Positions 9,715 through 32,408 of a stretch of 64,000 nucleotides of DNA are shown one piece after another. Every line of letters begins with the position of its first letter. The stretch's first letter is position 1. Location: positions 4,154,001 to 4,218,000 of the forward strand of contig JAHWDD010000001.1 of assembly GCA_023897205.1 (NCBI GenBank), written 5' to 3'. Both the position numbers and the translations under genes were made by a program. The stretch comes from Exophiala sp. HKRS030 (taxonomy: Eukaryota; Ascomycota; Eurotiomycetes; Chaetothyriales; Herpotrichiellaceae). Below the pieces are notes generated by a model. It saw only the letters and a program-made list of their open reading frames with translations. It was not told where the DNA came from and made no database searches.

Positions 9715-9770
9715 TGTGTTTGGTTGGTTCCTCTACTACTTCTTACGGAATGGTCGCAAAAGGCCCGTCA

Positions 9771-9816
9771 AGTATTGTGCTTTGCAAAATTCCGTAAAAA
9801 CCTTATTTTTTTGCAA
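9771..9816 (+). repeat. Left copy of 46-bp inverted repeat
   Basis: Starts agtattgtgctttgcaaaat and ends ttttttgcaa. It is the exact reverse complement of 31659-31704. The match stops sharply at both edges. Confidence 0.95.
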
Positions 9817-10036
9817 GTTGTATGAAATCTGCACACCGCCATATGGCCTGTATCAACAAACTCATCCTGCAGCCGCAATAGCCCTAGATAGCACTGTAAT
9901 TTACTGCAATATATCGTAACTACATACAAACATGATGTCGAATCGTACAAGGCGCACAATAACTCTATCCCGTTGACTCCAGGAGTCATTGGCCTCTCAA
10001 TCACTCCGCGAGACCCTTATTACTCGTAACGCTCGC

Positions 10037-10318
10037 ATGAAGCGCAAAAGCGACGGCGATAGCCTTACAACGAGGGCTAATAGGGCAAGTTCAAAGCGTC
10101 GCGCTGTGTCTCTAAGCCCTCGTCCCTCTCGAACGGCTAGTCCTGACCTGCCAGAGTCATCAGAGTCGCCAGAGTTACCGCCGAGACTAAGTATTGAGGA
10201 GGACATTATGTCGCAAGCACAGGAAGCGTTAAATCTTCTTAATGAGGATAATAAAGTCTTATCTATATCTAGCAATGCTAGAGAAGACAATAAAGAGAAG
10301 AGAGAGATATTAATGTAA
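10037..10318 (+). pseudogene. Short basic Ser/Pro-rich frame inside the outer transposon
   Basis: A 93-residue frame from an ATG at 10037 encodes a Lys/Arg-rich then Ser/Pro-rich peptide, ending where the DNA turns AT-rich. It is not recognisable. It may be the surviving 5' end of a transposon gene whose remainder has been lost to RIP; base composition here is normal, unlike the DNA that follows. Confidence 0.35.
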
Positions 10319-10861
10319 GCCCCTCTATTAGCGCAACCTAGTTATCAATCAAATACTTCGCTATATACTGCAGAGAATAACTTAAGCCTAACTAATATAG
10401 ACTCTATTAAATTAGTATTTAAGATTAATAAACTTTTCTATAATATCGCTATAGAAATCTTTATTAAGAAGGTTAAGATTCTTAGTATAGAAGTATTTAA
10501 GATTAATAAACTTTTCTATGATATCACTATAGAAATCTTTATTAAAAAGGTTAAGATCCTTAGTACGGAAGTATTATATTAGGGTTTTAATATTATTAAT
10601 ATACTCCTTAAGTATAAAGGTTAACTTAAGTATTAATATAATAACTATAATTAAAAGACTTATGAATTACGCCCCCCTATCTTTAGGAGTGAGTTCATAA
10701 TTAAATAAGGTAATAAAAAGCTTTATTCCTTAATTATAAAGACTTAAAAACACTTTAAGAAGGCCTATTAAAAGTGATAGAAGCTTTATTATGCTTAAAA
10801 AGATGGCTATAAGAGTAGGACTAAACTTAGTGCGCATTTAGTACTAGTATACTTCTATACT
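10319..10861. other. AT-rich RIP-like block, left half of the outer transposon
   Basis: About 540 bases of AT-rich sequence with the 78-bp tandem repeat and no coding frame. It ends exactly at the left 14-bp repeat of the inner element. Confidence 0.75.
10414..10569. repeat. 78-bp tandem duplication with transition-only differences
   Basis: Two adjacent 78-bp copies (10414-10491 and 10492-10569) both begin agtatttaagattaataaac, and a third partial copy starts at 10570. By eye the two differ at six positions, all C/T or G/A transitions, which is the pattern left by RIP on duplicated DNA. Confidence 0.85.
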
Positions 10862-10862
10862 A

Positions 10863-10876
10863 CGTCCCAGATTCTT
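10863..10876 (+). repeat. Left 14-bp terminal inverted repeat of inner element
   Basis: cgtcccagattctt; exact reverse complement at 29308-29321. It sits at the switch from AT-rich to GC-rich sequence. Confidence 0.7.
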
Positions 10877-10917
10877 CGAACTTCAATTCCCCTTCCCGAT
10901 CTAGCGGGGGAGCTGCG

Positions 10918-11060
10918 CCGCTCTAACTCACCCCGAGCTCAGCCTAGCTTAGCCTAGCTCACCCTTAGCTCAGTTTCACCTCACCCTAGCGCCCAGGTCA
11001 GAGTGAGTTAGGGGGTGAGTCACAGGTGCGCACAGGCTGCGCCCAAGGTGAGCCGAAATT
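10918..11060. repeat. Subterminal CTCACC/GGTGAG motif cluster, left end
   Basis: Several CTCACCC motifs (near 10927, 10958, 10979) plus GGGGTGAG near 11014 and AGGTGAG near 11046, with a small agcctagctt tandem. The first three read GGGTGAG when the end is read outward, the same orientation as at the right end. Confidence 0.6.
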
Positions 11061-11257
11061 GGACTAAGAGACGGGCGAAGGGTGGCGAGGGTCGGCGATG
11101 GCCTTTGATTGGTCTATGTCTATGGGGCCCATGAGCGACTTTTCGACGACAGGAAATCCAACCCTTCCCCCTTTCCCTCCTTCTCTCCCTCCCGCACATA
11201 CATTCTTCCAAGTGCAACCAAAGTTCTTTGACCACTCGAATGTTTTTCAGCAACGAC

Positions 11258-11357
11258 NNNNNNNNNNNNNNNNNNNNNNNNNNNNNNNNNNNNNNNNNNN
11301 NNNNNNNNNNNNNNNNNNNNNNNNNNNNNNNNNNNNNNNNNNNNNNNNNNNNNNNNN
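11258..11357. other. Assembly gap (100 N)
   Basis: Exactly 100 Ns, the usual placeholder for a gap of unknown length. It removes the 5' end of the Zn2Cys6 regulator and means that the join between the left terminal region and the cargo is an assembly inference. Confidence 1.
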
Positions 11358-13778
11358 CCTACAAGACTGACCAAGGACAAACAGTGCGATGGTGGGCGTC
11401 CAAGCTGCATGCGATGTACTGAAACGAAGGCTATGTGTGTATACGAAGAAACGATTGTTCGCAAGTCAAACTCCTCGTCCGGGTACGTGACCAAGACACC
11501 ACGCTCCTATTCTCCCCAGGGATTCCAAGACCTAACTGGCGTTCAGGGAAAAATTTCAAGTCCTGGACCGGCTGAAAGCCATTGAGGAAAAGCTAGAACA
11601 TGTCCAGTGGACTTACACACGCAACCCACCTCAGCTTCCTATCGAGCCTTCATCCATGCACAGGTGTCATTTACCGCATAATCCGTCTACCGGGCCCTCT
11701 ATAAGTCCGCAAGAGGACATGCCTCCTTGCGACGTCTTCGAAGACTCCGTGGACGGTATTGGGACTATTCGCTCAAGCGACAGCCAGGATGATTCTGCAC
11801 ACTTCGGGGCATCGTCCAACATCGCTTTCCTGCTCCGCATCACCCAGGCTCTGGCCAATTCGGCTGGTTGCGGTAACTCAAGAGATCTGCTAAAACCTTA
11901 TCATCGTTGTCCGTCTTCTGCTACGTCTTCGAACGTTCCTGGGCCTGAACCGGGCCTTTCCGGCGCCCTATCCTGGCCGAAATCTTGCCAAGCTACTATC
12001 CTTGATATTCCACCGGATGCCATGGACATAATACAGGAGTACTTTGCAACCGTGGCGCTGTTCATGCCCTTCTTGCATGAAGAATCATTCATTGCTGTTT
12101 TCGAGCGAGGGCGTACGCAATGTTTCAGGAACGTTCGAAAATCATGGCTGTCCTTGCTTTACATGATTTTGGCCCACGTCTACCTAACTCAGACAGCAAT
12201 GTCCCCTAGCACAGAGTCAGCTGAACGTTCCGAAAACTTCTTCCAAAATGCCTTGGCTTTGGCGGTGCCGGAAGTCATCTTGGGCCCGACTAGCCTGGAA
12301 CATGGTATGATACGCCCTACATCTGCCTAATCAGTCCCAGTGTTCTAATAACTTAACATCATGCAGTCCAACTCTTCTGTTCGATTTGTGCGTACCTGCA
12401 AGGCTCATCGCACTCTTCGCGTGTATGGACATTCCACGGCCTGGCTGTTAAGTCCGCCCTGCAGCTCGATCTGTGCTCCACTGAGTCTTGCTCTCATCTA
12501 ACGCCTTTGGACCAAGAGATGCGGAGACGAACTTGGTATATGTGTCTCATAAACGATGCGTGGGTGACCTCCCATTCTCGCCTTATTCGTCTACCCTAAA
12601 CTAATTTTTGGGGTCTAGGATATTTAGTGTCAAGTTTGGTCGACCACCCTTAGTGGCAGAGTCCTTGTGGAAGGCGAGCACCCCAAGCAAGATCACCGAT
12701 TTACCTCCGTCCGTTGCCAGGAGCCCCTCGGTGATGGCTACGAGCCTGTCCTATTACCGGGCTATGTTGTAAATGACTCTTCACCGTTCCCCGGAAATAT
12801 AGCACCACGAGCTGATCTCACGCTGAACAGATCACTGTCATTCATCATACGCGACATCACGAAGAGACTATACTATGATAATGTCGGATCCCCTCCACCC
12901 CTAAGCTGCGCTGAGACGTTGACGGAAACCTTTAATCTCTCATACAAACTTTCCGAGTGGCATGGGAATGTGCCTCGAGCTCTGCGTCCCGGCGAAGGAC
13001 TTGAGAAGCAGTACACTAGACACCAGCCTCTCGAGACACGCAGACTCCAAGTGGCCCTGTCCTTTCGATACTCTGGTGCCTGTATCCTTCTTCATCGCCC
13101 AATATTACAGAAGCTTTGGGATTTCAATAGTGATTCAACCAGCCTGGAGCTGACTCTGCTCAAAGGGACAGGCTTTCTTTCTTTGAGAAGCTGTATGGAT
13201 ACTTGTAGAGACGCAATTCAAGTGGGAACAAGCATCGTCAAAGAGATCAATAGGCAAACGAATTTACTGGGAGCATGGTGGTTCACGACCTATTACAGTG
13301 AGTTTGTTCAATCCTTGCCTCTCCTAAGCCCGGGCTAATGAACCAAGCTTTCAATGCCTCCCTCATGATCTTGGGCGTCCTCCTGGCCTCAATGGAACCG
13401 TCCTTCAATGAATTGCTCTCGCTCAAAGCCACCACGTCTCTCCATTCTAGTCTGAATGACGCTGTTACACTATTGGCTCAACTTGACGGAGGCAGTCCAA
13501 TGATCAAACAGTGTCGCGAATGTCTACAACGCTTGCTTAAAATATACTACTCAATCGCCCAAGCATCCATTACTGAAGACGGCAGTAACAAGAGAGAGCA
13601 AATTGAAGTCGACCAATTAACGTCGAGCTGTACCTCTAGCGGAGACATCGATCTGAGCTGGCTACCTCCGAAGGATTCCGGCTCTTTCACTCTAGGCCAT
13701 GGGCCGGGTGTTACAGACACAGACCTCAATCTGTTTGAAGGCCTCTTCAGCTCCAACTTTGAGTTCCTGTACGGATAA
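11358..13778 (+). CDS. Zn2Cys6 fungal transcription factor, 5' end lost in gap
   Basis: The frame after the gap reads KDKQCDGGRPSCMRC...MCVY, giving cysteines 3-6 of a Gal4-type zinc cluster with the right C-x6-C-x2-C-x6-C spacing. The first two cysteines are absent at the expected spacing, so they probably lie in an upstream exon within the gap (possible acceptor at 11375). Exons: up to 11482, 11547-12304, 12367-12559, 12619-12768, 12831-13297, 13348-13778; introns of 64, 62, 59, 62 and 50 bp restore one frame. After a short coiled linker comes the fungal-specific middle-homology domain: RRRTWYMCLINDA then FGRPPLV, with a late WWFTTYY segment. Such proteins are nuclear regulators, often of neighbouring pathway genes. 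The oxygenase and aldehyde dehydrogenase follow at once, so they are the obvious targets. Confidence 0.85.
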
Positions 13779-13862
13779 GGCTAGTTGGGCTTTTTCTCGA
13801 CGCCGCGACGAAAAATTGCCCGTCTGCCAGCATCAGTCCACATCGTTTCGTTTACACATCCT

Positions 13863-15895
13863 TCATTCTGCTACTGGAATTGCCTGTGGATGGCCATCAA
13901 TATCGCTGCTATCCACCCAGTTTCCATGGAGTCCCGCCCGGAGACGAACAGGCAACTTTATCAGAGCAATCTGGGCCATTGTTCTTGTATCCATAATTAC
14001 CATTTCACTGCACATTTCGTCATAGTTGTTCAGCAGTGCAATCAGGTAGCCGTCTCCCTCGAGAGCGTTGGGACTACGCGGCACGAAGACGCATTCTTGA
14101 CAGAACTTCCGAGGACCCGCGAAATACTTTTTGTACTCTTTAGTATCGACATCGAAGGAAGCAAGGCCGTTGAACAACGGATACCCAGCTACAATCAAGC
14201 ATCATTGATCAGCAGTCGACCATGTAACACCCAAGAGGGCTTGATGGAGGTGATCAGATCCGATGGATCTTACTTACCTCCCATACGAGGAAGGATAAAC
14301 GGAAAATCCGTGCCGGCCGTCTTATCCATGACGCAAACAAAGATTCGCGAATGGCGAGCCATGGCTAAGCGATCGTCGATTCTGGGGAATTCGGTTTCTT
14401 CCTCCTTGATGAAATACTCGGGCATGCCGAGCTCCAGGTTGTCGCTCCTGTAGTCAATCTCAAACTTGCATAGGAGCGATTCGGTCTCCCCAGGCCTCGG
14501 GCCCTTCCCGTTCTTGTCTGGCCACCAGAAGAAGACATTGTCGGGTGCATATGTCATGTGAAGGTGAATCTTACCGTGCTCTTCGAACGCGTTGGCTGTG
14601 TGTCCGGCGAAACCAGGAGGTGCACGAAACCACTGACAGAGTTAGCGACTGTTTATTCGCCACGGGCCCCTCCAAGCTGAGCCGAGGGCTGAAGATGGTT
14701 TACCTTGACATCACTTCCCTTGGCTTGTCTCCGAGGCAGGACTCCAATGTACATGGGGATACTGTAGTCCCATTGCCAGTGCTCTCCACCATTCTTGAGG
14801 CGTTCCAGGTCGCATGTGAGGGAAATAATGGGAAAGAGGACCTATGAATATTCTGTTAGGACGACATTGGGAAGGCAAAGGGAAAGAAAACGCCAGTCTT
14901 ACGTAGTTTTCCGTGACGGCGAAGTCATGGATCATGCCACAAATGGGAGAGACGAGCCACACTAGCTCTCCCAATTTCCCATCCTTGTCGAAGGTATAGT
15001 AACAGATGTCGTTCGTTGCGTCCCCCTGAGCCTCATAGCCAAAGCACACCATCTCACGACTGACTGGGTCAAACTTCGGATGGGCCGTGAAAGTTAGACA
15101 AGGCAATTGCCCGTCAAAGTCATACAGACCGAGGGTCTCGAGGGTATCGGGATCCATTGCATAGGGAGGTGAGTCTTCCTTGAGCGCTAGGAGTTTACCG
15201 TTCCAAAATACAATGTTGGTATTAGCCGTCGACCGGACTTTGAAGTCGACCAAATCTGTATATCTGTTTCTATACTTTCCTGTATGCGGGGTTAGCCCTC
15301 AGGTTATTTCCATCTCTTACGAGGGTAAAGGCCAACCTAGAAGAGCTCTCCTTGCCTTTGCTTCTCGTACAAACTTCTCGGTCCGAACATAGCGTTGCTT
15401 AAAATCAACGTGGCCGTTAGAGATGCGAAATGCGCTGATGTTACCGTCGCCGTTAAACCACTAACCTCGGTAAGTGATTGATCAGGCATCCCAGACAAAT
15501 GCCAAGGTCCAAATAGAACGTACCACATCATTTCCAGTGAAGGAGGGAAATTGAGGCTCAGGCATCACCCGGTAGAATGTGCCATTGATTCCCTTTGGGA
15601 TTTCCCCAAAAACTTCGAGATTGCCTATATCACCCTCGAATCTCGTTGGCCTATGAAAGCCTGCTACTTGGGGATCCTCCAGTGAGAAGTGTGCGGGTGC
15701 CGGTGGCCATTCGTCTTGGTGATTCGAACATCCAGTTGAACCTCCAGTTGAACCATTGAGTCCCTTGGGCTTTAAAGCTTCCTTGAAATGGCCTGCCATG
15801 GAGCTGTCCGTTGGCCTGATACTTGGCACCTGGCTCAGAAGCTGAGGAGAATGTCTTCGGACGAGGTACTTCGGAAAGTCTGCTTTCGACGCCAC
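13863..15895 (-). CDS. Carotenoid-cleavage-type oxygenase (lignostilbene/isoeugenol-like)
   Basis: Six exons on the minus strand: 15524-15895, 15337-15460, 14903-15279, 14704-14841, 14278-14632, 13863-14188; introns 57-89 bp, phases consistent, 563 residues. This is a non-haem iron dioxygenase of the RPE65/CCO fold. The four iron-binding histidines are visible as H232 (AHPKF), H283 (MIHDFAV), H348 (GHTANAFEE, with second-shell E354) and H543 (GLHGNWVD). The N-terminal part ([30 protein letters not shown]) looks like the group that cleaves stilbenes and phenylpropenes (lignostilbene dioxygenase, Cao-1, isoeugenol monooxygenase) rather than plant carotenoids. Products would be aromatic aldehydes. 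It is transcribed divergently from the aldehyde dehydrogenase at 16435, which fits oxidation of that product. There is no signal peptide, so it is probably cytosolic. Confidence 0.85.
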
Positions 15896-16434
15896 CGCTG
15901 CTATTTGGCTAGTCTACCATCTGGCTTCGGAAAGGCTCCGACTTGAGCGGACCAATGAAACAGGCTCGGGGGTACCGGCAGGGATGAAGAATAACAAATG
16001 TCGGCCGGGGGGGTGGATGATACGAGGTCAGGTTGCACCCGACTGGCCCAGCCCGCATGCGCTGACAATTTTGGCTCCCTATGATGCTGAGTAATGCTTT
16101 AGTATCAATCAAAAGCTTGATACCGTCTTGCGGTGGTAGTGGCAGTAGAGGCCATGGTACTACGGGCTGATGACGACGAGGTATCGGCATCGGCAACGAC
16201 AACGGAGGAGGAAAAAGAACGAGTCCAGCGTTGACGGCTTCTTTGCTGAAAGCTCCTGTAACCCTTTTGCATCCCGCCTCTACTCATTATTGCCTGATCT
16301 ACTTGCCGGACCCAGGTCAATTATTCCCCCCTCTTTTTGCCTTTTGCAACGGGATCGTGGGCGCGACAGGCCGCTAACATAAAGATACCTGCGCAAACTA
16401 CACTTACCATCTAGATACTTGTACACAGCTACGA
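15896..16434. promoter_or_regulatory. Shared divergent promoter of oxygenase and aldehyde dehydrogenase
   Basis: 539 bases separate two divergently transcribed cargo genes with linked predicted chemistry, so co-regulation is likely. I see no unambiguous CGG(N)CCG Zn2Cys6 site pair; isolated cgg and ccg triplets occur (near 15995-16020 and 16200). Confidence 0.5.
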
Positions 16435-18138
16435 ATGAGGAAACATCACATAATAGCACCAGATACAGAGAGAAAGCCCTCAACTACCCTCAGCCCTCAA
16501 AAAACGCCTGGAACCCCCTCCACCCGCAACGCCATGACTTCCAACGGTGACAGCGTCAATGGAATGTCCCTTTCAGCCTTCGACTCCTCCTCCACGATTC
16601 CTCTATGGCTCGACGGCAAAGAAGTGAAGCTCTCGTCGACCTTCGACGTGATTTCCCCGCTGGACCAAAAGACATTGTACAAAGCCTCGGCGGCGAATGA
16701 ACAAGACGCTTTGAAGGCGATCGCCTCGGCAGAGAAGGCACTCAAGTCATGGTCCAAAACGAAACCGTCGTTTCGACGAGACGTCTTCCTTCGCGCTGCC
16801 GAAGGGTTCAAAAAGAGAAATGATGAACAGAAACATTACTCATACACCGAGACTGGGGCAGCCGAGTCCATGTTCGCATTTGAACACAACCTCGCGTACG
16901 AAGCTTGCCTGAGCGTCGCAGGACTCGTTCATACTGCAAGTATATCGACCATGCCCGTCGCTGGCGAAGAAGGCTTCAACGCCATGGTGCTCAAGGAACC
17001 ATACGGTGTAGTCCTGGGGATTGCACCGTGGAACGCCCCCAACGTGCTGGGTTTGCGCGCCTTTTTGCAACCTCTTGCCATGTACGTCTGCTTTCTCCCC
17101 GAATACCTCCTCCCTCCAGGCTGCCCGTCTTGCCCAACCTGCCCATGTAGCTTTCCATTCCGCTGTGCTCGAACGCATGCTGACGAGAACAAAAGGGGGA
17201 ACACCGTGATTCTCAAAGGCCCCGAGTTCGCCCCTGCAACATACTGGGCCCTCTCGTCCATCCTCCACGAGGCAGGCCTCCCAGCGGGATGCCTCAACAC
17301 ACTGTACCACCGACCAGCCGACGCGGCCAGCGTGACGTCGACACTTATCTCGCACCCATCCATCAAGAAGATCAACTTTACGGGCTCCACGGCCGTGGGA
17401 TCCATCATTGCCTCGCAGGCTGGCAAGTTCCTCAAACCGTGCGTGATGGAACTGGGCGGCAAGGCGCCCGCCATTGTCTGCGAGGACGCCGACATACAGA
17501 CAGCGGCGCTACAGTGCGCGCTCGGCGCCTTCCTGCATGCTGGCCAGATCTGCATGGCCACCGAGCGCATCCTGGTGCACGCCAAGGTAGCCAACGCCTT
17601 CCGCTCGGCGCTCCACCAGACCATGGACCAGGTCTTCGCGTCCGACGCACAGGGCGGCTTGGGGGTGCCGCAGCTCGTGACGGCGCTGCCCGTGACCAAG
17701 AACAAGGCCCTGTTGGCTGACGCCGTGTCCAAGGGCGCCACTGCCATCTACGGCGACCCGCACCACTCCGAGGCCAGCACGACCAAGATGAGGCCCGTCG
17801 TCATCGAGAACGTCAAGCCGGACATGGACATTTACCACACGGAGTCCTTCGGCCCTACCGTGTCGCTATACGTCGTGCAGTCGGACGACGAGGCCGTCGG
17901 CATCGCCAACGACACCGATTACGGCCTCTCGAGCTCCGTCTACACCGAGGACCTGCGTAGGGGACTCAAGATCGCCCGCCAGATCGAGAGCGGCGCGGTC
18001 CACATCAACACCATGACCGTCCACGACGAGGCCGCCCTGCCGCACGGCGGCGTCAAGAAGTCGGGCTTTGGTCGCTTCAACGGCATTCCTGGTCTGGAGG
18101 AGTGGGTGAGGACCAAGGTCATTACGTGGAAGGATTGA
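16435..18138 (+). CDS. Aldehyde dehydrogenase, salicylaldehyde/vanillin dehydrogenase-like
   Basis: NAD(P)-dependent aldehyde dehydrogenase. The frame is open throughout, but 17082-17195 (gtacgt...aaaag, 114 bp) is an intron of 38 codons without a stop: removing it joins LRAFLQPLAM to GNTVILKGPEFAP, the normal family sequence. The spliced protein has 529 residues from the first ATG, or 496 from the ATG at 16534, which is the usual family length and the likelier start. Motifs: GIAPWNAPN (cofactor), NFTGSTAVG, the base Glu in VMELGGKAP, the catalytic Cys in HAGQICMATER, and ESFGPTVSLYV near the end. The sequence looks like the salicylaldehyde/benzaldehyde/vanillin dehydrogenase branch, matching an aromatic aldehyde made by the divergent oxygenase. 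Intron retention would insert 38 residues before the catalytic domain and probably inactivate it. Confidence 0.85.
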   Translation: MRKHHIIAPDTERKPSTTLSPQKTPGTPSTRNAMTSNGDSVNGMSLSAFDSSSTIPLWLDGKEVKLSSTFDVISPLDQKTLYKASAANEQDALKAIASAEKALKSWSKTKPSFRRDVFLRAAEGFKKRNDEQKHYSYTETGAAESMFAFEHNLAYEACLSVAGLVHTASISTMPVAGEEGFNAMVLKEPYGVVLGIAPWNAPNVLGLRAFLQPLAMYVCFLPEYLLPPGCPSCPTCPCSFPFRCARTHADENKRGNTVILKGPEFAPATYWALSSILHEAGLPAGCLNTLYHRPADAASVTSTLISHPSIKKINFTGSTAVGSIIASQAGKFLKPCVMELGGKAPAIVCEDADIQTAALQCALGAFLHAGQICMATERILVHAKVANAFRSALHQTMDQVFASDAQGGLGVPQLVTALPVTKNKALLADAVSKGATAIYGDPHHSEASTTKMRPVVIENVKPDMDIYHTESFGPTVSLYVVQSDDEAVGIANDTDYGLSSSVYTEDLRRGLKIARQIESGAVHINTMTVHDEAALPHGGVKKSGFGRFNGIPGLEEWVRTKVITWKD

Positions 18139-20113
18139 GTGGTCTTGACCAATGAAAGACAAAAAGTACCACGAGAATGGCAGGCAAGGAGCATTACTCA
18201 GTGTAAATAGGATTCACAGATCCAGTACCTAAGTAGTACCTAAGAAGGATCAGTAGAAAACCAAACACAGCCAGCCAAAAGCACAAATCAAATTCAAAAT
18301 TGACACGTTTCGTTATATCTCCCTAGCTAGGTAGACGTTGCTTCCCTAATGTATACTGTACAATTACGGAGGCCTTTCCGCGAACCTTGCAAACTAGTGT
18401 CTAAGCTGGTACGGATTATACTGTTTTCATTACGACCACCACACAAGCGCAAAGCACTGTTTATAGAGTGCTGTACTGTTACCAGTCATAGGTCCAAACG
18501 TATTCAAACCCACGTCAAGCCAGCTAGCCAGCCAACCTTTTTTCATCCCAGAACTACCTTACATCATTAACTTCCACGTCGTTTAAAGATATCAGTCCCG
18601 GTATTCAAGACATAATTATCCTCAATAAAAATAATCCTGCAGAGTTGAAGAATTACATTATCACAGCGAAGTTTTGAGCCAAAAGACCGCAGCGAGTGTT
18701 TTGAGAAAAGCATGATCTTGTAAAGAGATAATGAGGAACCCACTCACAATCATATACTCAAAATCTTGATCCCATAGATATAATACCATGTCTGATTCAA
18801 ATTCATAAGCCCAGAGAATTCTCTCCGCTATCTTTTGTGCCAATCTATCATTGTCTGGTGTTGATAATGTCTCTTCTGATCACTTATTCCATCTGGCAAA
18901 TCTCTGTACTCCAAGCTCAGCGGGTCCTTGGGGCAAAAATCTTCCTCAATTATCATTTGCTCAAATTCAACGAGATGAAGCCTCAAGAACTTGTAAAACG
19001 GACAGCAGTCTGTCTTTACCTGGATAGTGGTGATGGTTTCGAACAGTGCGTGTCTCTTCAACCAAATGAACAAGTGGCCACTTGTGCAACTGGGAGAATT
19101 TCAAGGTGCTATTCTGAAGACTCCCATTATCTCTACGAAGCAATCAAAACTAGTCCGCCATCTACCATTCAACTCTAACTGAGACACTAAGTCCGAATCT
19201 TGTAGCCAGCCAGCACGCCATTCGAGAACTACTCGACTTTGCCAAATCGTTTATCCTTCTAATTGTTGAGATCGAATTCTGTCCTTCTCATATCTGCGGT
19301 TGATGCTGGAGAAACAGCTATGTTCAGATTCGACTGTCTTTGGCGAAGAATACTCCAAGAAAGATTCAGTCAGTCATGTCTTCAATTTTCTGCACAGAGG
19401 CCTATCCGAGGTGTTAAATTATATTCCACAACCAAGATGGAAATCGCAACGCCGTCCAAAGACGAGCACTTAAAAGGCTTTTCAAGGGGAGTGACACTTA
19501 GAAGCAGTAGAACAATTGTTAACGATGGTAGAGTCTTAGAACATGAAATTCGACATACCGACATACGATGACTGGCCCACTGATGGAAGAACGGGCATGT
19601 GTAGAAATTTAGAGCGTCGACCTTGAGAAGTGGTCTTTACTGTCTATCCTGAAGTTCACTAACGTAGAAATCCCTGCGTCGTCACTGCGGCTTCTACCTC
19701 TCATGCGTAGAAAACGGATTCGTACACGACGCAAGTGACATTTATTGCTTAAATTTAAAAGGTCACTTGGTCTGGATCCCCACAGTTACGTTGTGCTCCA
19801 GCTCGCGGCTTGAATACCGACAAGCCGCGAATAGTCTGAGGTGATCTGAGGCTAAACCCGCCGAATGCAAGGATGATTTACAACCTTGCAGACCTCAATC
19901 CATCATATAGGGCCTCTCATGAAACATGGCATTGATTCTCGGACACGTCTGATCCGGATGCGGCACTTGTCTTGATTCGACACACCTGTCGTGCAATGAC
20001 CACCGCCATCTATATATGACGTCTACGGCAGCCCTACATCATGCGATAATGTCTCCCCAAATCGACCTCTGTCAGTTGATTCTACATCTCTTAATTCTCC
20101 CTAAGTACCTGTG
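18139..20113. other. 2-kb cargo stretch without an intact gene
   Basis: No complete gene. It holds a broken minus-strand frame (18661-19073, listed separately) and a 102-codon plus frame at 19263-19571 that I do not recognise. The last ~200 bases should be the promoter of the coiled-coil gene at 20114. Composition is ordinary, so this looks like decayed cargo and not RIP. Confidence 0.5.
18661..19073 (-). pseudogene. Broken hypothetical gene, unrecognised
   Basis: Two minus-strand frames meet near 18835 with a one-frame offset: the first ends ...TMIDWHKR-stop, the second continues KIAERILWAYEFESDMVLYL. Read together they look like one protein rich in aromatic and acidic residues (DFCPKDPLSLEYRDLPDGIS upstream), which suggests a frameshifted relic. 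There is a possible acceptor-like or donor-like site upstream (CAG|GTAAAG near 19020). I do not recognise the family. Confidence 0.35.
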
Positions 20114-21318
20114 ATGGCCAACAACTTCCCCGATGAAAGGGTTGTGTACCTCGCGCTGAAAGAAATCTTCAAAGGAGCCGACGCGCAGGTTCGCAAGGCC
20201 AAAAAGGTGCGCGAGATCGTCCAGAAGGCGCGAAACAGCATCGATGTGAGAGATCTGATCCAACAACACAATATTGAAAATGTCTGCAGTGTAATAAAAA
20301 CACTTCTCGAAAAGCAGATCTTTGAATCTACTCTGAAGGCGAAGATTCGCTTCCCTGAAGTTTTCGAGATTTCTCCCGCCCAGAGCGCTGAACGGTCTGC
20401 TTCGGAGGCAGAGGCCGCAAGATTAGAGGCCGACGCCATCAAATCTGCTTCCGTATACCAGAATGGCAACACGGCCACTGGAGACAGCCACCATGTGCAC
20501 TTGTTCGGCGACAAAGCATCGCGGACTGGTTGGTCGCTCTCATGCAATTCTTCTAGCTTTGAAAGTAATATTCAGCAGATCTCCACGAGGCGCGAACGGC
20601 TCTTCGCAAGCGGCCATTTCCACAGACCAGCGTCCAAGTCCCCCCCCTCTATCCAGTATATCTGCCATATCAAACACAGCATCGGTTGCTATCAAAGGTG
20701 CAGGGTATTCTCGAAAATGCCTGCTACGACTTTGGGTCACGAGAAATGAAGGACATCATTGAAAAAGAAGGTTGGGATTGCCCGGAATGTGTCGAATTGA
20801 ACGTGTGGGCCCGCACGCTTCTCGTCAAGAAGGATCTTTTTCCTCCTGTGGATCTAGAAAACTTGGGACAACAATTCTCCGAGCTCACCAACTCTATCAG
20901 TCAACTCCGTCATACAGTGGTTCATCGGCTTCGGATTAATGCTAACGGACTGGAGCGGTTTCTGGCCGATGCCGAAGCTCTCACGAAATTACTTCACGAT
21001 GACAACAGCACAAGATCATTAGCACGACTCCGGAGGGATACGCAAACTAGCATCGATGAACTGAAACGGAACAAGGATCTCCTTGAATCGAGACTCAATT
21101 TGAAATTGAAACAAATTTCGGATCAGAGGCTCGAACTGGATCGGCATGAGCAATCGGTTGTGGACGAGATGTTGAAGGCAGACAAAGAGTATTATCTTCT
21201 GGCCGGTGGTACCTTGGACGAAGCTATACAATCCTGTGATACGGCAATACGAATTTCTGCGCCGGCAGAGATTGCATCGAGGTCTGAAAGCGATTGCGAG
21301 GATGATCTCTCCACTTGA
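20114..21318 (+). CDS. Coiled-coil protein of fungal GTPase-associated type, function unknown
   Basis: Two exons, 20114-20528 and 20579-21318, joined by a 50-bp intron (acceptor could also be 20575), give 384 residues. The splice was inferred because the frame continuing into ENACYDFGSREMKDIIEKEGWDCPE is open only from 20569 and reads naturally upstream (DLHEARTALRKRPFP). The first 100 residues are helical; the middle carries the ENACYDFG/EKEGW segment; residues about 230-350 are coiled coil with LRHTVVHRLR and then ELKRNKDLLESRLNLKLKQI. Similar fungal proteins are often labelled 'cytochrome c1' in databases, a label the sequence does not support (no CxxCH haem site). It is first of three co-directional genes ending in a dynamin-like GTPase, so it may be a partner of that GTPase. 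Confidence 0.7.
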
Positions 21319-21762
21319 TGGCTCTCATGATTCTGTGGGATCAGGGACTGCGGTTCGATCCAACTTGCACTTCATGCACCTCGAGAAACCTGTGAACGGC
21401 GTCAACACCTCGCTCATCCGCAGTGTGACATCACCAAGAATTACAGCACACAGCAAGAGAACGTACATCCGGATCGGCAGTTCCAAGACAGCAAGGGGAG
21501 TTGAATTGCTATCAGGTAGGTCTGGCTTCTCACGTTAGCTTGCCCAGTAGTACAGAAAGTGTGGCGGTAGTCCGTCCTAAGCAATTTTACTTTCTGCACG
21601 GTTGCACGGAGATCTTTGATTTTCATCTATATTGGATACTCTCTCGGCAAGGCCCACAAAATCTACTCCGACTGCTGCCTAGGCTGCTCAATATCATTAG
21701 CATTGTTCACAGACCATCTTTGTGAGGCATGATTCCAGTGATCGACTGCACCATCAAGGAAG

Positions 21763-22644
21763 ATGGCCTCTACGTTCCTCAACATGAATCGTGTTGTGCA
21801 ACAGTTTGATTACACTGACGTTGGAGAGCTTGAAGCAGCGTTGAGCTTGCTCATCGTCGTCCCAGATACCTCGATCGCCACCACTAAGGAACATCTCAGA
21901 CTCATCAAAGCTTACGCGGGCAATTACTCTCTTCCTTCTTGGACTCTGAGTAATGCAGAGATTCTGGCAACAGGGTTTCGAGACATGATTGTCATCCTCA
22001 CAGAACCAACCGATAAAGCAGATACCCTGCCATTTGAGCCCATGATGGAGGGGTCGAGAACTATTCGCAGCCTGGACCGTGCTCTGCAGTGGGCTAGTAA
22101 AGGCCAAAGAAGCGTCCAAAACACAATTATACTTGATGGAAGATTGCTTCGCAGCCGAGCTTTCCAGCAAAGAGAATCTCGATCACTGCGACGTCATCGC
22201 GACAGCCAAGGCTTTGGTGTGATCGACGACATCTGCAAGTTAGTCGAACCCAGCGTGGTACTTGTTTGCAATTGTTGTCGATTTGAGACTCTCAATTCGC
22301 GGACGACCGACTTGCTTGTTTCTAGGATCCCGGAGGCTGGGAATATCGAGATGTTGACCTGGCCATCCGGAGCGCAAGGGAGCATCGTGAAGAGTTTCCA
22401 TCCAGAGTTTATCTACAAATGCGAACAACCCGACCAACGCGCCTTGCGCGAATCCCTCTGGAAGTTGACCATTGCAACAGCGACGAATATCATCCTGAAG
22501 AGCAACTTGCGAGGATCTGGTATTTCGAAACTCCGTTCCACGGTCTTGAGAGGCATGGACACGTTTGCGGAAAGCCGTCGGAATGGTCAAAATACCCAAG
22601 GCACGTCCAAGGCAGGGACTCTAAGGGGTAGGATAGGAAGGTGA
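21763..22644 (+). CDS. Hypothetical protein, middle gene of the GTPase trio
   Basis: Single exon, 293 residues, from the ATG at 21763. It starts 444 bases after the coiled-coil gene and ends 367 bases before the GTPase, in the same direction. No signal peptide or membrane helix. The core has alternating beta/alpha character: NTIILDGRLLRSRAF, then CKLVEPSVVLVCNCCRF, then a conserved-looking SFHPEF followed by a helix RALRESLWKLTIATATNIIL. The arrangement (hydrophobic strand before a cysteine pair, then H-P near the C-terminus) is loosely like uracil-DNA-glycosylase-fold proteins of fungi; this is a weak impression. The basic tail (RNGQNTQGTSKAGTLRGRIGR) may bind nucleic acid. No function is assigned. 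Confidence 0.6.
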   Translation: MASTFLNMNRVVQQFDYTDVGELEAALSLLIVVPDTSIATTKEHLRLIKAYAGNYSLPSWTLSNAEILATGFRDMIVILTEPTDKADTLPFEPMMEGSRTIRSLDRALQWASKGQRSVQNTIILDGRLLRSRAFQQRESRSLRRHRDSQGFGVIDDICKLVEPSVVLVCNCCRFETLNSRTTDLLVSRIPEAGNIEMLTWPSGAQGSIVKSFHPEFIYKCEQPDQRALRESLWKLTIATATNIILKSNLRGSGISKLRSTVLRGMDTFAESRRNGQNTQGTSKAGTLRGRIGR

Positions 22645-23011
22645 GGCGCAAAACTTGGGCGAAAACGACCCTTTTCAGCGGCAGTGTGGACATAATCACG
22701 TCAATGCTTCCTATAAAAAGAATTAATATTTGTAGATATTGATACCACTCCGGTATACCTTAGTTTCCCAAGGCTGGACAGGTCCAGTGCACGGGCTGTG
22801 TCGTTTGACCTACGTGCTGAAAGCGTCAATTATCATGTCGATGCTCACAAGCAAACACGGGCACCCGCTCGCTATGCCCGAGCCACACAATTCAAATGAG
22901 CCAAAGGAGAAGGACGAGATGGAAGAAGATTGAAGCCTATAAAGGTGGTCGTCGACGCGAAATTGAGTGCAGCACTTCAAGAGCTTGTCCACAATAATCG
23001 ATCCGCCAATC

Positions 23012-25057
23012 ATGGTCAAGAAGCCGACTTCTCTCAATCTGGAGGCTTTCCACACCCTCGACAAAGATAAACGTCAAGCTTATCTGGCTGTTGTGGATCA
23101 GCTTCGAGAGCTAGGCGTTGGAGAAGACTTGTCGCTTCCTCAGGTACTTGTAAAAGACATCTTTACTGGTATGTGATAATAATTCAAGCCAGCTTGTGGT
23201 CGTTGGAGATCAATCCAGTGGCAAATCCTCTCTTCTCGAAGGACTCACGGGGTTGTCTTTTCCCGTCGCAAGTGACTTGTGTACCCGGCATGCGACACAG
23301 ATTGTTCTACGACGAGTGCCTGCTCATGAAGCCGCAATACGCATCTCCATCATCCCGGGACCTAGCAGCATCGATAATGCTGATGAAAAAGAACGCTTGG
23401 GCAAATTCGCCCGTTGTATCAAGACCACCGCCTTTGGCGCCGATGAATTTGCTAGTATTCTCGATGAGGTGAGAAGAGCAAGCAGACTATGCTGTGAGTG
23501 AGTGGAATCTAACTCTATCAGGCTTCGGAGATTATGGGACTTCCACGTGCCGGAGCAACAGGTCTTGACAATATCGAGAAGAGGTTCTCCGACAACGTTC
23601 TGAAGGTCGAGCTGTCCGGTCCGGAGCACAATCACCTGAGTGTTGTTGACGTCCCTGGGCTTTTTCACAGTATGTTGACTGAAAAGATGCATCGTACAGT
23701 CGCTTATCGAGAAATAGATCCAGCCATTTATCAGACCAATGAGGACCTCGAAATCATCCGCAAGCTGATCATGGACTATATCTCGGACGCCCGTACCATT
23801 ATCTTGTAAGGGCTGAACTCGAACAGCATGATAAAAGCACTAATTTCTTCAAAGGGCGGTCATAGATGCGAGGAACAACTTGGCCAACCAAGAGGTGTTC
23901 AAGATGGCACGTGGAATTGATCCACGGGGTGATAGGACTGTGGGAATCATTACAAAGTGCGACGTCGTCCAAAGTGGCGATGAAGCTGGGGTCGGTGATT
24001 CTTTGGACTTTCATCGAGCCTTGACCCAAACTGACCCCTCCAGGTGATTCGCATCGCGCAAAATTTGGTGGAGAAATTGCAACATGGATGGTTTGCCGTT
24101 CGCAATCGTTCACCTTCCGAGATCAAAGCCGGAGTTTCGTTGAAAGATCGTCATGCAACAGAGCGGGAGTTCTTCATGACCAGCCCATGGAGCGAACTTC
24201 GCAAGGATCGAACCGGAATACCTGCACTCAGTGCATTTCTGGCCCAGCTTCTCTATGAACACATTCGTCGCGAGTTCCCTTCCGTGGTCGATGAGATCGA
24301 GAAACATTGCAAACAGCTCCTGGCCGATATCGAAGACTTGGGACCACCCCGTCAGTCGTCCATCGAACAGCGACAATACTTGACGCAAGTAGCTAGTCGG
24401 TATCAGAAAAAATTGGCTGATTATCTCAGAGGAGTCTACGATGCTGACTTATCCTCTGACCACCCGCTCAAGCTACGCATGCACATCAAGGATCTCAATG
24501 ATGCTTTTGCTAAAACGACGTCGAAACAAGGCCATACCCGGGCATTTCGAAATACGGATGATGAAGAAGATTCGGAATACCACTTCAAAGGCTCCGAAAA
24601 GAGTAGCATCTATGACTGTATTCGAACTTCATATCTTGAAGCCCGCGGTAGTGAGTTACCTGGATGCGTCAATCCGGCCGTCCTCGAGAATTTGTTTCGG
24701 CAACAGACATTCAAACGGCAGGAAATTGCAGAACAGCACCTGGAAAAAGTGCAGTCAACCATTCAGGATTTCCTCATCGCTATTATCGAAATCTTAATTC
24801 TTGATACCACAGTTCAAGATCGCCTTAGAGGTCGTCTGGTTCCGCTATTGGACGACTCGGCCAGTCAAGCTTATCACACCCTCGGACTTTTTCTGAAAGA
24901 CGAGAGAGAGGGTATACTACAAACTGTGAATCATTACTTTGCTGACTCTCTCGCTGCGGCACGCGAAGACCGTGTGGTTTCACGGTTGCGGAAGCTGGGC
25001 ATCGAGCCATTGGGGGACAGGGCGGTCCCAGCAGCGTTCGGCCAGAGGATCGGGTGA
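23012..25057 (+). CDS. Dynamin-like GTPase, short C-terminus (no GED)
   Basis: Six exons: 23012-23143, 23193-23468, 23522-23669, 23724-23805, 23855-23990, 24044-25057; introns 49-54 bp; 595 residues. Large GTPase of the dynamin/Mx family: P-loop GDQSSGKSS (residues 49-57), DVPG (about 180), TKCD (246-249), then EVFKMARGIDPRGDRTVGII typical of fungal dynamin-related proteins, and a helical stalk/middle domain (HGWFAVRNRSPSEI onward). The frame stops soon after REDRVVSRLRKLGI, where family members continue for some 100-200 residues into the GTPase effector domain; that domain is absent. The last 78 bases overlap the 3' end of the captain gene on the other strand. Mx-like members act in antiviral defence and others in membrane fission; the role here is unknown. 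Confidence 0.85.
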
Positions 25058-28000
25058 GCCAAGAATTGATAGCACCCGAGGGGAAATCGTTGGATTCGTG
25101 GTGGGAATCTTGGTGCGAAGGCCGACGTAGATAGATGACATGCCCCCGGATGGAATTGACAGTGAGTCACGCTGTGAAGTTGGTCTCGAAGTCCCATCTT
25201 GGTCAGAAATATTCCACTCTCGGGTCATTGTAGAACTTGCGGATTCGTCCTGATCAGGCTGATCGCTCAGAATCGCAGTGGCAGCTTTTCGGGCTCGGTT
25301 TCGGAAGCGCACCGGGTTCAGACAATGATCATCGACAGAAGGAGGCTGACAAGGCTTGGGAAGGTCCCGAACGCGGCGAGTTTTTCCTCTCGGCCTTCCT
25401 CTCGGCCTCCCTCTTGGCCTCTGAGTAGGTTGTGTTTTTGCCCGCTTCTTGGACGGATACTTCTTCGGCAACGGCAGCTCTACTCGTCCCCGTGTACGCC
25501 GGGTCAAGATATGTCCTTTGACCATCGAGGGTGAATTGTGTCCTTTTTCTTCCGAGGTCCACCAATCGATCGGTAGGGGCGGAATCTCGACGGTAATGTT
25601 GACCTGCCGCTTGCGGCATGATGTCTCTGAGAGCTCAAGAGACTTCGCTTTCTTTCTGGCAAAAGCCGAAGAGGAGTCCAAGACCTGTCTTTTCTTTCCT
25701 CCTGCTTGAGCAGATTGGAGAGGGACTACCACAGCGTCAAGTGTTTGCCTCTCCCTGTTATCACTTTCTGCTCGAGGTGGCATGATGCGGCCTGATCCGC
25801 GCAAGGAAGTATCGTCTTGACGACTCAATCCCGGTTCTGAACGATTTTGGGGTGCTCTTGTTTCTTCAGACGCGAGCTCCGAATGTCGCGTCGTCTGTGG
25901 AGAAGGTTTATCACCTCTGACGAGCATTTTGTTGTAGTCTGCCATCGATGCTCTCATGAAACCTTTCTCGTCGGAGTCGCGTGCTTCAAGTCGCTTCCCT
26001 TGTGTCACCTCTAAAGGCGGGCCTCCGCTGCGTGGAATTTTCAACTCGAAGGTCGATCTTCGAGTGACCTGATTATTAATAAGTTGCTTCATTGAGGCCG
26101 AGGTTCGGTGTATAAAGCCATCATCTCCCTTCGCACGGGTTGTACTTTTCCTTTTGGAAGCATACCGATATACTCGCTTCTTCTGTCCTTCTCCTTGAGT
26201 CGATTGGTCTCGTTTCACCTGCTCTCTTTCTGTGACAGTGAAAGAGATCTGGTGGATGTCTGAGAGGTGTTCAAAGAGCTCCTCCCAAGATGTCTGTGCC
26301 GCAAGATTGGTGCAGCGTGGATGGGAACAAGCCCACCGCCCACGCTCGCGGAGGCTCATGTGATGACGAACATGCATTTTCCACTCGCTCACGTTCGTGT
26401 ACTGCCGGAACCTAACTTCGGGGTCGGCAGTCTTGTCACCGAGGCATTCTGGGCAGAATCCCGGCCGCAGGAGGGTATGGCGAAACTGCGCAATGTTGCA
26501 TTTCAGCGGCAGAGGACGCATTTCCTCACTGGGTTGGAGATGTTCAGACGCGTGATGCTTCCAAGAGGCGAGACTGCCAAACCACCTGGAGCATGGGAAA
26601 CAGAATTCTTGAAATTGCCCGACTTTCTTGGCCGCTGCCTTTCGGCATCGATACACGTGTGACCACCATGTAGATGGGTTAGACCTGCCGTACAAAAGTT
26701 AGTGGCGTCCATTAGTCGTTGACAATGGCAATCTGGCCACGTACCCAATGCGTTGTTGATGGCAAGTATCGCATACGTCGAGAGAACTATTGAGCCCGCG
26801 GCAGTACGTTTGCGACTTCTTCGCCTGAAGAAGTCGGACCAGATCGTCCATGATCATCATCCCGATCCGGTCACGGAGACTTCCTTCCTTGAATAAATTT
26901 TCGGCTAGCCGATCCCGCTCAGGCATCAACTTTCTCGTGTAGACAAAGTCCGACTCGTACGGAAAATCATCAGATATCATGAACTCTGCAGGTGGGCAGG
27001 TCTGGTGATTCCTCAGAGCCCGGTCGCGTGTCTGGCGTTTCTGATCGTAGAGTCTCTGTCGCATTTTCATGTCACATCCGCGTTCGTCCACGGGCGAAAC
27101 TGCCTTCTGGTCAGCCGCAGCCGTCCCAGACTCTTCAAGTTGCTGCCTTCGATATTCAGGCAAAGTCGGCCAATGGTTGTAGTTTCGACGCAGAGAGTAC
27201 CCGCGGAAGAGCTCATGGAGCCGTTGGTTTTGACGGTCAAGTTCGAAAAAAGTGGCCTGGCCGTCAACCGTGCTGATCGTCGATTGGTACGCTGCCGGGT
27301 AGGTGCCTTGATGGCGGTGGGCGCCGAATCGCATACGCTCATTGATGGAATATCCATAATCTGGTCGGTCAGCGCCCATGATTTGGCCAAACGCTGGCAA
27401 TGTCTGCACTTACTGTCCACTTTGAACAGAGCCTCTCGACGGGATGCGTGAAATGTGAGGCTTTCGCGAAAGCCTGTCCGGTAACCTGCGTCCGGGAGCG
27501 CGTGATCGGCCAGAGACGTAGAGGTCAAACTTTCATCGACTGAACCGTCCGCATAACACCGTGGGAAAATAGGCATGTCCAGACAGTGATACTCGTAGCC
27601 TAGAGAAAGATGGGCCCGCCCGCGGGGTTTCCTCATAGAGCAAATGTCGGCCCATGTCTTGTAATGTCGCAACGCTCCCGCTGAGAGAACCCGCGCCATT
27701 ATAAACAGGACGACGTTGTAGTAGAATGGTTGACCGACCAATTCGTAGGGTATATGTTCAGGCCTCGGCTCAGTCAGTATTCCTGAAAAATCCCCTAGAC
27801 CCAGGAGGAACCTACTGCTCTCGAGGTAGATCTTGAAGGCCCTTAGCCTTGTCTCGCCGGAGGTCAAACACGATCTGTGGCTGATCGGTCATCCAGACTT
27901 GATAAATCCCAATATCCTATAGAAGGCGGTCAGTATGTCTCGGCATTTCGTAAAGATGTTTTCCCCTACACGGAAACGAAGATTCATTTCGAACTCGCCG

Positions 28001-28703
28001 GCACGAGCAGATGTCCCACAGTGGAGAAGTTGAAGGCAGTGCAACCCCCACCGGTATAACTCGTGGTGGTAATCATGCCAGTCGTTCTGCCACAGCTGAC
28101 GAGAAACGGCCTCGAAGTCGAGAAGAGTGTAGTTTTTAGTCGGTCTCCTCTCTTTAGACAGATCCAGAACGTTATCATCGCCTCCGTCGATGAGCTGCGA
28201 ACTTTGTCAGAATTAACTTGCTCAATAGCCCAGGAACCTCCACGTACGTTTAGAATCGTGGAACGTAGGGGCTTCGAGAAATGGTCGCCCGTCTTCCGCT
28301 GCCACGCGGTCATGAAATTTTTCCAGAACGTCTCCGCGGTTGAGTCTAAGATCTTGCGGTCCCTGTCTACTCGACCTTTACCTTGCCTTCCTCTTCTATA
28401 GAAGATGAGAAAGTCCTTCGCCGTCTTGGCCTGCGTGGGGCTCGGCCTACATCCAGGAAAGAGTTCCGAGTACTCTTGGACGAACCTGTCGAAGCATTAG
28501 AGGAAATCGCCTCAAACCCGAAGACGTTGAGACGACACATACAGGTCCCATTCGTGCAAGACGGTCTTGTAGTTGTTCGCTGTCCCGTCCCTGACGGGTT
28601 TCAGAGTGAGGGAATCATCAGTCGTCCGTACGGCGTCAACGAATCCGTTGGAGTCCCGGAGCTTCTTGCGCTCCAGGTCTCGCGGTGTCAGAGAGATAGC
28701 CAT
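24980..28703 (-). CDS. DUF3435/FluG-type tyrosine recombinase (Starship captain family), one frameshift
   Basis: Minus-strand gene, probable exons 28526-28703, 28248-28474, 27970-28194, 27414-27916, 26745-27360, 24980-26684 (introns 51-60 bp), about 1150 residues. N-terminus GTANNYKTVLHEWDLYVSS is the core-binding region of such recombinases; then QLWQNDWHDYHHE and the first catalytic Arg in CGTSARAGEFEM. The second box is LTFHASRREALFKVD (H-x-x-R), then FGAHRHQGTYPAAYQ with the third His and candidate nucleophile Tyr, so an R-H-R-H-Y set is present. Exon 6 adds Cys/His clusters (FCFPCSRWFGSLASWKHHASEH; WACSHPRC) and a triple AT-hook (RPRGRPRGRPRG, near 25380-25425). Exon 4 reads through only if one base is skipped between about 27812 and 27860: a frameshift, sequencing error or odd intron. 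The gene points into the element from its right end. Confidence 0.8.
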
Positions 28704-29143
28704 ATGACGCGAATATCTTCGTCAGTCTCAAGGAAACATAAGATTCCCAGAGGTCACTAGGACAGGGGAACAAGAAATCCCAGGCTTCCCGTGGAAGAGA
28801 GGGCCTGTCTGTTGTATTAATACCATTGCGTGTCCTCTCGGGCAGGCAGGGGGAAAGGAGGGCGACATAAAACCACGACTGCGTGGCCACGTCGGCGCAA
28901 CAGGGGCCCAACGGTGCTAGGATTTTCAGGAGCATGATGCCTGCCCCCTTTGACTGTGTGTCGCTTCATGCTGTGCTGTACCGTAGACGGCGCCATTCTG
29001 CCCTTCGGTCCCACGTCGACTCTCACATCACACACGGCCGCCGCGGATTGGCCCACGCTGCCAGCAAGGGGGACACAGCCTGGCGCACCCCGCCGACCCA
29101 GATTGACCTATCAGGGCGGCCGGCGCCCGGTGGCTGCGTGGTT

Positions 29144-29199
29144 GAGTCGAGGGTGAGTCGAGGGTGAGTCGAGGGTGAGTCGAGGGTGAGTCGGGTGAG
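29144..29199 (+). repeat. Tandem 11-bp repeat gagtcgagggt, right subterminal region
   Basis: Four full copies of gagtcgagggt followed by a shortened one, then further GGTGAG motifs near 29240 and 29258. It lies between the captain start and the right 14-bp repeat. A role as recombinase binding sites is inference. Confidence 0.8.
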
Positions 29200-29307
29200 G
29201 TCGAGGTGCGCGTCGGATGAGCCGTCGAGCGCGTTGACGGTGAGGGGGGTGTGATTGGGGTGAGTAAACGGGCGAGCGAGACCGTCGAAAGCGGCAATCG
29301 AGGTCCT

Positions 29308-29321
29308 AAGAATCTGGGACG
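29308..29321 (-). repeat. Right 14-bp terminal inverted repeat of inner element
   Basis: aagaatctgggacg; reverse complement of 10863-10876. The GC-rich side is inside and the AT-rich block begins immediately outside. Confidence 0.7.
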
Positions 29322-29323
29322 AA

Positions 29324-31658: not shown

Positions 31659-31704
31659 TTGCAAAAAAATAAGGTTTTTACGGAATTTTGCAAAGCACAA
31701 TACT
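31659..31704 (-). repeat. Right copy of 46-bp inverted repeat
   Basis: Exact reverse complement of 9771-9816, ending ...gcaaagcacaatact. Identity over 46 of 46 bases at a distance of 21.9 kb cannot be chance. Confidence 0.95.
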
Positions 31705-32408
31705 GGATGCCGATCATACGTTTTCTGTGAGCAGCCGACAGAGAGTTCGATAAGTGCGAGCAGTGGATCAACAGATCAGGTCGTACTATTTGATATGGGA
31801 TGCTGTCGATATTGGGCATTATGGAGCTTTGCAACCTCCTCCTACTTTTGGCTGGCCCATTAAAAAACACACAGGATACTCGTCGATCACTTACGACTCG
31901 CAATCCAAATCCTCGCATGAATACAATCGCGGCTCTTCTCTTCTTGAGGTGATTATGGTGGTGATGACGACCACTTTTACACACGCCTCTCTCTCATTTC
32001 ACAAAAAGTCTCCGAATATTCCCCCTTTTCTCGGAGACATTTCTGAATACAAAAGGTCGCCTTAAAAAATTTCCGTTGGATTGGATCGCAAGGCCTTCCA
32101 CACTACGCACGCGCATTCGTATTACGGGGAGTAATAAACGAGGGTATCTCGCATAGCGAATGACTTCAGTGTACTTCTTCATTCTTACGAAAGTACGAAA
32201 CGTACGTATTCCTTGTTCTTACTTGTTCCGTGGATTCCTTTGGATCATCACAACGATACCAGTCCTTGGTCTATGTTATAAGTAGGCAGAGGTGAGTCTT
32301 ACGGTAAGCTGCTGCCACCTTCGGATTCCATTGACTCTTCTTTTTCCCCGTTCATACACATATCGCATATCGTTACGACGTGTCTCTGGGATCTACACAT
32401 TGTCAGAA
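31705..32408. other. Spacer between island and P450 gene
   Basis: No gene supported; short frames on both strands lack domains. The final ~150 bases are pyrimidine-rich and likely P450 promoter and leader. Confidence 0.4.

Follow-up and report, generated by a model that had tools for sequence, protein, structure and literature searches.

Structure of the locus

The DNA analysed here, referred to as the window, is a stretch of 64,000 nucleotides from Exophiala sp. HKRS030 (assembly GCA_023897205.1, contig JAHWDD010000001.1, positions 4,154,001 to 4,218,000 of the forward strand). It contains a gene-bearing segment, very probably a mobile element of the Starship type, which interrupts an AT-rich repeat and carries near one end a tyrosine recombinase gene of the DUF3435 family, termed the captain. 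Coordinates without a label are positions in the window; labels such as C6 or C8 denote loci in the same 59.8-Mb genome, where related captain ends (siblings) and further copies of the interrupted repeat (the host repeat) were found. The features on which the argument depends are as follows.

10854-29323, minus strand: probable element of the Starship type, 18,470 bp long with the 100-N gap counted in, its 5' (captain) end at the right and its 3' end at the left; placed on the basis of repeat copies unoccupied at this position and of sibling ends
10849-10853, no strand: direct repeat (target core) ATACT, left copy
29324-29328, no strand: direct repeat (target core) ATACT, right copy
10863-10876, plus strand: terminal inverted repeat (TIR) CGTCCCAGATTCTT at the left (3') end, 9 bp in from the edge of the element
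29308-29321, minus strand: TIR CGTCCCAGATTCTT at the captain (5') end, 2 bp in from the edge of the element
11258-11357, no strand: assembly gap of 100 N, true length uncertain, 404 bp inside the left end
24980-28703, minus strand: captain, a DUF3435 tyrosine recombinase gene with a Cys/His-rich tail; seven exons proposed by hand with the help of siblings (28703-28543, 28485-28248, 28194-27970, 27916-27816, about 27781-27414, 27360-26745 and 26684-24980)
25003-25006, no strand: junction where homology to dynamin (from the left) and to captains (from the right) both stop
9768-31707, no strand: host repeat into which the element is inserted, AT-rich over most of its length and with 49-bp inverted ends (9768-9816 and 31659-31707) that are 98% alike

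Boundaries and direct repeat

GC content changed sharply at both ends of the segment, from 0.20-0.32 just outside (in 200-bp steps) to about 0.5 inside, as an initial annotation of this DNA had described. Copies of the host repeat on C6 and C8 aligned across the insertion point over 842 bp (89.8%) and 1024 bp (88.9%). There (C6, 2513930-2513980; C8, 25085-25135) they read AGT-ATACT-TAATTATTAAG, with a single ATACT, while the window reads AGT-ATACT-TCTATACTACGTCCCAG ... CTGGGACGAA-ATACT-TAATTATT, the element running from TCTATACTACGTCCCAG to CTGGGACGAA. Because the C6 and C8 copies run through the window junction with one ATACT, the element occupies 10854-29323. Each of these copies carries a sibling element end at another position; they are unoccupied here, not intact. 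With other copies of the target repeat at hand, one genome is enough to pin down an insertion site.

The initial annotation had correctly placed the right end at 29323, followed by its ATACT, and had taken it as the 5' end. Its left end, 10862, was 8 bp too far in and was rejected: in the C6 and C8 copies the flank extends to 10853/10854, and the ATACT at 10857-10861 on which that placement relied lies inside the element, other 3' ends differing there (TTTACTACG on C6, CTTACTACG on C18). At the window locus alone, the direct repeat can be read as ATACT or ATACTT. The insertion on C6, at another position of the host repeat where C26 has ATACT followed by A, separates this T from the target, and the direct repeat is therefore 5 bp long. 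ATACT also followed the captain end in five of seven related copies (the exceptions being ATACC on C18 and TTACT on C39) and stood in front of all three of the exact-TIR 3' ends that were read (C1, C6 and C18:46691).

On the left and on the right, the flanking DNA represents complementary halves of a single repeat, and the break falls on the same base in both; scaffolding across the gap at 11258, to which the initial annotation had already drawn attention, thus looks right.

Terminal inverted repeats

The 14-bp inverted repeats reported earlier are perfect at the two element ends. Their sequence, CGTCCCAGATTCTT, forms the core of the longest inverted pair (43 nt, 74% complementary) among 197 found between 10 and 30.5 kb, of which the longest 25 were listed. 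Among nearly 3000 pairs of 60-bp windows drawn at random and lying at least 200 bp apart, no pair had more than 11 bp, against 14 bp at the element ends. Genome-wide (59.8 Mb), the exact TIR occurred six times, as against zero for a reversed control, and all six occurrences are element ends. Two lie in the window and two at captain ends (C26 and C23); the others belong to 3' ends, on C6 (98% match to the window 3' end) and on C18 (80%). When one mismatch was allowed, 25 matches (6 of them exact) were obtained versus 13 in the reversed control, so inexact matches are mostly due to chance; they include three captain ends (C8, C18 and C39) and a site inside the window captain gene.

The captain gene

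The captain ATG at 28703 lies 620 bp from the right edge, on the minus strand; the gene is the first of the element and points inward, in agreement with the distance of about 600 bp given by the initial annotation, which had also proposed a comparison with the captain profile. Against the Pfam cut-off of 25.8 bits for PF11917 (DUF3435), the captain model of the C23 sibling scored 42.4 bits and the second half of the window captain 31.1 bits, and PF11917 was the sole Pfam family over its cut-off in the captain. In a homologue search, 12 of 8000 scored candidates passed an E value of 0.001, and 11 of the 12 contained PF11917. Eight of these homologues were named, from Exophiala, Knufia, Lithohypha and Cyphellophora; the four species looked up, one per genus, all belong to the Chaetothyriales.

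In an alignment of the 12 homologues (A1), the R of TS[AG]R and the K before GL were kept in the 10 rows that reach there, and R363 of HxxR, H386 and Y392/Y396 were conserved; the H of HxxR was absent in 2 of 12 rows. This order, R, K, H/R, H, Y, is that of tyrosine-recombinase active sites, to which the residues probably belong. Judged by its sequence, the minus-strand gene is a DUF3435 tyrosine recombinase captain.

A probable Starship within an older repeat

Two ends, a direct repeat, unoccupied copies of the repeat, a captain and siblings were all observed. In our assessment, the segment is very probably a Starship, lodged inside an older AT-rich repeat that looks like a dead transposon; elements of this type are mobilized by the DUF3435 tyrosine recombinase that they encode, the captain. 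The initial annotation had read the segment in the same way, and the unoccupied repeat copies and sibling captain ends elsewhere now support that reading from within one genome. According to passages of PMC12134995, PMC12153272 and PMC12257634, Starships carry a DUF3435 captain at the 5' end and measure 15 to about 700 kb, with one possible case of 989 kb; their TIRs are asymmetric, and insertion is often in transposable elements and AT-rich DNA. Of 20 high-confidence Starships of A. fumigatus, according to the same passages, 19 have direct repeats (2-12 bp) and 18 have TIRs. At 18,470 bp, the length of the gap being uncertain, the window element lies above the lower limit of at least 15 kb stated in parts of PMC12153272 and PMC12134995.

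By analogy with known tyrosine recombinases, the captain would most likely bind the inverted CTGGGACG/CGTCCCAG arms at both element ends and recombine them; an excised form and strand exchange are envisaged on the same model. The predicted excision (circle) junction is CTGGGACGAA-ATACT-TCTATACTACG, and insertion at ATACT would leave one ATACT on each side. The element would have landed in the older AT-rich repeat with inverted ends, which resembles DNA altered by repeat-induced point mutation (RIP), and an internal deletion at the junction between captain and dynamin genes would have made it small.

Several observations weigh against this interpretation. Both ends were located for the window element only: stretches fetched for C26, C23, C8, C2 and C39 contained no 3' end with at most two TIR mismatches, and no fitting 3' end was found for the C18 captain. 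The DUF3435 cut-off was passed with modest scores only; the first half of the window captain gave no PF11917 match, single exons stayed below the cut-off, and the window was not among the 36 matches listed in a genome-wide search for DUF3435 exons. No solved structure matched the captain by sequence. The true size of the element is uncertain owing to the N gap, and the unoccupied sites come from further repeat copies in one genome, not from the same locus in another strain.

The modest scores, together with a size near the low end for Starships, could also point to another tyrosine-recombinase element of Crypton-like kind, or to a segment that was mobilized passively by some unrelated TIR transposase. 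We regard this as very improbable, since PF11917 alone exceeded its cut-off in the captain and no other transposase was matched among the element open reading frames (ORFs) scanned with Pfam, some short ORFs lying outside that scan. A Crypton would have a Crypton-type recombinase without TIRs or large variable cargo, whereas the window element has TIRs and several cargo genes. In passages of PMC12134995, Cryptons are described as very distantly related, and variable cargo and, in some cases, TIRs set Starships apart from them. There is likewise only a slight chance that the segment is not one mobile unit, and that an AT-rich repeat was broken by host genes or by a scaffolding error with a captain relic at the edge by coincidence. 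The 100-N gap 404 bp inside the left end would be in keeping with such an origin, as would an aldehyde dehydrogenase gene of the segment that has a close paralogue on C12 (87% amino acid (aa) identity). However, the two flanks add up to one repeat that was broken at a single ATACT, they match read-through copies, and the 14-mer at both edges has just six occurrences in the genome, at such ends only.

State of the window copy

The Starship in the window is probably incomplete. The acceptor before captain exon 5 is out of phase relative to C23 and C8 (determined by script) and to C26 (by eye, in an alignment). Captain homology ends at 25006 and dynamin homology at about 25003, within roughly 3 bp of each other, so that the two genes are cut tail to tail at one sharp junction. 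The C-terminus of the window captain is at least about 100 aa shorter than those of the C23 and C8 siblings, whose models run on without a stop for 1235 and 1269 residues, as far as the DNA was translated. Six aligned dynamin homologues, 678-696 aa long, extend about 110 residues further at the C-terminus than the dynamin gene of the window. Because both captain and dynamin are truncated at one sharp junction, the junction suggests an internal deletion in a larger ancestor, which may have made the element small; it illustrates in concrete form how Starships may lose length. With its out-of-phase acceptor and truncated captain, the window copy looks damaged and is probably no longer able to move by itself, though siblings could in principle act on its ends.

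On balance we lean towards viewing the segment as a one-time Starship reduced by internal deletion to an immobile or non-autonomous remnant, with a captain that yields no working protein and with any movement dependent on a sibling captain. This refines the Starship interpretation and does not oppose it. The splice defect relative to three siblings, the coincident loss of both homologies and the sibling frames that continue past the end of the window copy argue for it. Against it, splicing may proceed in another way, the lost captain tail may be dispensable, and the exon pieces of the window captain are still open and free of RIP mutation.

Sibling elements

The 4.3 kb of captain-end DNA in the window (25006-29337) shared 89-92% nucleotide identity with C26, C23 and C8, and about 69% with C2. 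The window cargo did not turn up in the DNA retrieved next to these captain ends, part of the C26 stretch consisting of N. Among those ORFs of at least 200 aa that were scanned, an alpha/beta-hydrolase was recognized beside the C26 captain end, an OTT_1508-like deaminase and a Tc3-type transposase beside that of C23, and P450, cutinase, aspartyl protease and FMO genes beside that of C8. Since the 3' ends of the siblings were not located, these genes are adjoining DNA only and are not assigned as cargo. Three weaker 3'-end matches were also seen, at C8:809733, C16:248162 and C21:33832.

More distant captain ends on C18 (26235-30009) and C39 (28587-32412) were 87% identical to each other and 46-53% identical, at the protein level, to the window captain. 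Two pairings were considered on C18. A captain at C18:161511-162439 was unsupported as partner of the 3' end at 46691, the best TIR in 162001-164500 having four mismatches, and a two-mismatch TIR at C18:20492 (minus strand) does not fit the C18 captain in orientation.

The 3' end at C6:2512951-2514435 and the captain end at C26:34981-36877 interrupt the host repeat at one and the same ATACT, each with the half that the other lacks. This may be a single insertion split by the assembly, or two insertions that share one site. A 100-N gap follows the C6 3' end at C6:2518966. About 4 kb past the C26 captain end, beyond the AT-rich host repeat, present there as two opposed copies, lies a second, different DUF3435 gene (C26:38982-40282).

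Target repeat, RIP and history

The AT-rich part of the host repeat had TA/AT ratios of 1.5 on the left and 1.36 on the right, of the RIP type, versus 0.62 in the element. Flanks of the ends on C26, C23, C8, C6, C18 (both places) and C39 were likewise RIP-like, ranging from 1.4 to 1.62, and the C2 flank had a GC content of 0.27-0.30. The captains of the window, C26, C23 and C8 (TA/AT 0.55-0.57) are not RIP-mutated, in contrast to the C2 copy (C2:19759-24384; TA/AT 1.54, GC 0.32), a dead relative with an insertion of about 310 bp. Four captain ends are free of RIP next to repeats that are heavily RIP-like, which makes escape from RIP through horizontal arrival a testable proposition. As a separate observation, the first ~0.5 kb of the host repeat (9768-10330) has a GC content of about 0.43-0.55 and an open frame, the remainder being AT-rich; this may reflect uneven RIP or a composite repeat.

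ATACT occurred 8.5 times per kb in the AT-rich flanks of the window versus 1.6 times per kb elsewhere in the window, and much of the preference for AT-rich targets could therefore be explained by motif density alone. Over exons 5-6, the four captains were 92.0-96.3% identical to one another in aa sequence and 90.2-92.6% identical to a protein of Exophiala oligosperma, PV06_11714, which scored 33.6 bits with PF11917 and is annotated without the N-terminal part. Recent duplication of the captain within the genome is disfavoured, given 8-11% DNA divergence between the copies and changes that go in every direction. Lineages that have long been apart, or arrivals independent of one another, would fit the identities better than recent copying within the genome. 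We offer, as a speculation that we think rather less likely to hold than to fail, the view that this Chaetothyriales lineage of Starships, its ATACT core some five times denser in RIP-burnt DNA (in this window), uses dead transposons as a safe harbour, and that co-resident copies, nearly as unlike each other as they are unlike that of E. oligosperma and free of RIP, look as if they had arrived separately from other fungi.

Comparison with described Starships

Starships themselves have already been described, and the window element is a well-supported further case, adding a clean, base-resolved Starship and captain relatives in the Chaetothyriales. We found no Starship papers on Chaetothyriales, Exophiala or Herpotrichiellaceae in the open-licence full text of PubMed Central. 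Compared with Starships in general, as portrayed in the passages cited above, an element of 18.5 kb is near the lower limit, and its captain is truncated. Some likeness to Sanctuary and Serenity can be noted from parts of PMC12506042 and PMC12257634: the captain is about 350 bp from the edge in Sanctuary and 620 bp here, and the direct repeat is ATWHCT/ATACCT there and ATACT here, which is weak evidence of membership in that family. Sanctuary, at 170-196 kb, differs greatly in size from the 18.5 kb found here.

Cargo genes

Between the gap and the captain, the element carries the following genes.

11358-13778, plus strand: gene for a Zn2Cys6 transcription factor, its start missing because of the assembly gap (Zn_clus match of 23 bits against a cut-off of 21)
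13863-15913, minus strand: gene of the RPE65/carotenoid-cleavage-dioxygenase family, in four exon pieces
16378-18138, plus strand: aldehyde dehydrogenase, several homologues of which are named vanillin dehydrogenase
20105-22644, plus strand: ORFs without assigned function (20105-20749, 20569-21318 and 21742-22644), no Pfam match over the curated cut-off
23012-25057, plus strand: dynamin-like GTPase gene (Dynamin_N and Dynamin_M)

Two ORFs after the Zn2Cys6 fragment gave no Pfam match when scanned. The initial annotation had described the cargo as stilbene or phenylpropene cleavage genes plus a trio of dynamin-like GTPases. The genes behind its catabolic part are present, namely the carotenoid-oxygenase exons and the aldehyde dehydrogenase; the trio was reduced to one gene with Dynamin_N and Dynamin_M, the scanned ORFs upstream of it having no Pfam match over the cut-off. 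It is plausible, by analogy alone, that the oxygenase and dehydrogenase jointly degrade stilbene- or phenylpropene-like aromatics.

A dynamin gene appears in a table of Gaeumannomyces Starship cargo in PMC12134995. The set of carotenoid oxygenase, vanillin-dehydrogenase-like enzyme and dynamin had no match in passages of PMC12134995, PMC12153272 and PMC12257634, and a search of the open-licence PubMed Central literature for 'vanillin' listed matches (the best 10 of 19) in which the word was absent.

The three best dynamin matches and the best named dehydrogenase matches came from black-yeast species, for example of Exophiala, Rhinocladiella and Cladophialophora, which belong to the Chaetothyriales. 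Within the genome, the dehydrogenase paralogue on C12 (453373-455274) shares 81% DNA identity over the gene and is a possible source or recipient of the cargo gene; oxygenase paralogues reach 56-66%, and the best dynamin paralogue 37%, over a short stretch. At C2:262687-266431, a match to the carotenoid-oxygenase family lies close to an aldehyde dehydrogenase match, as in the element.

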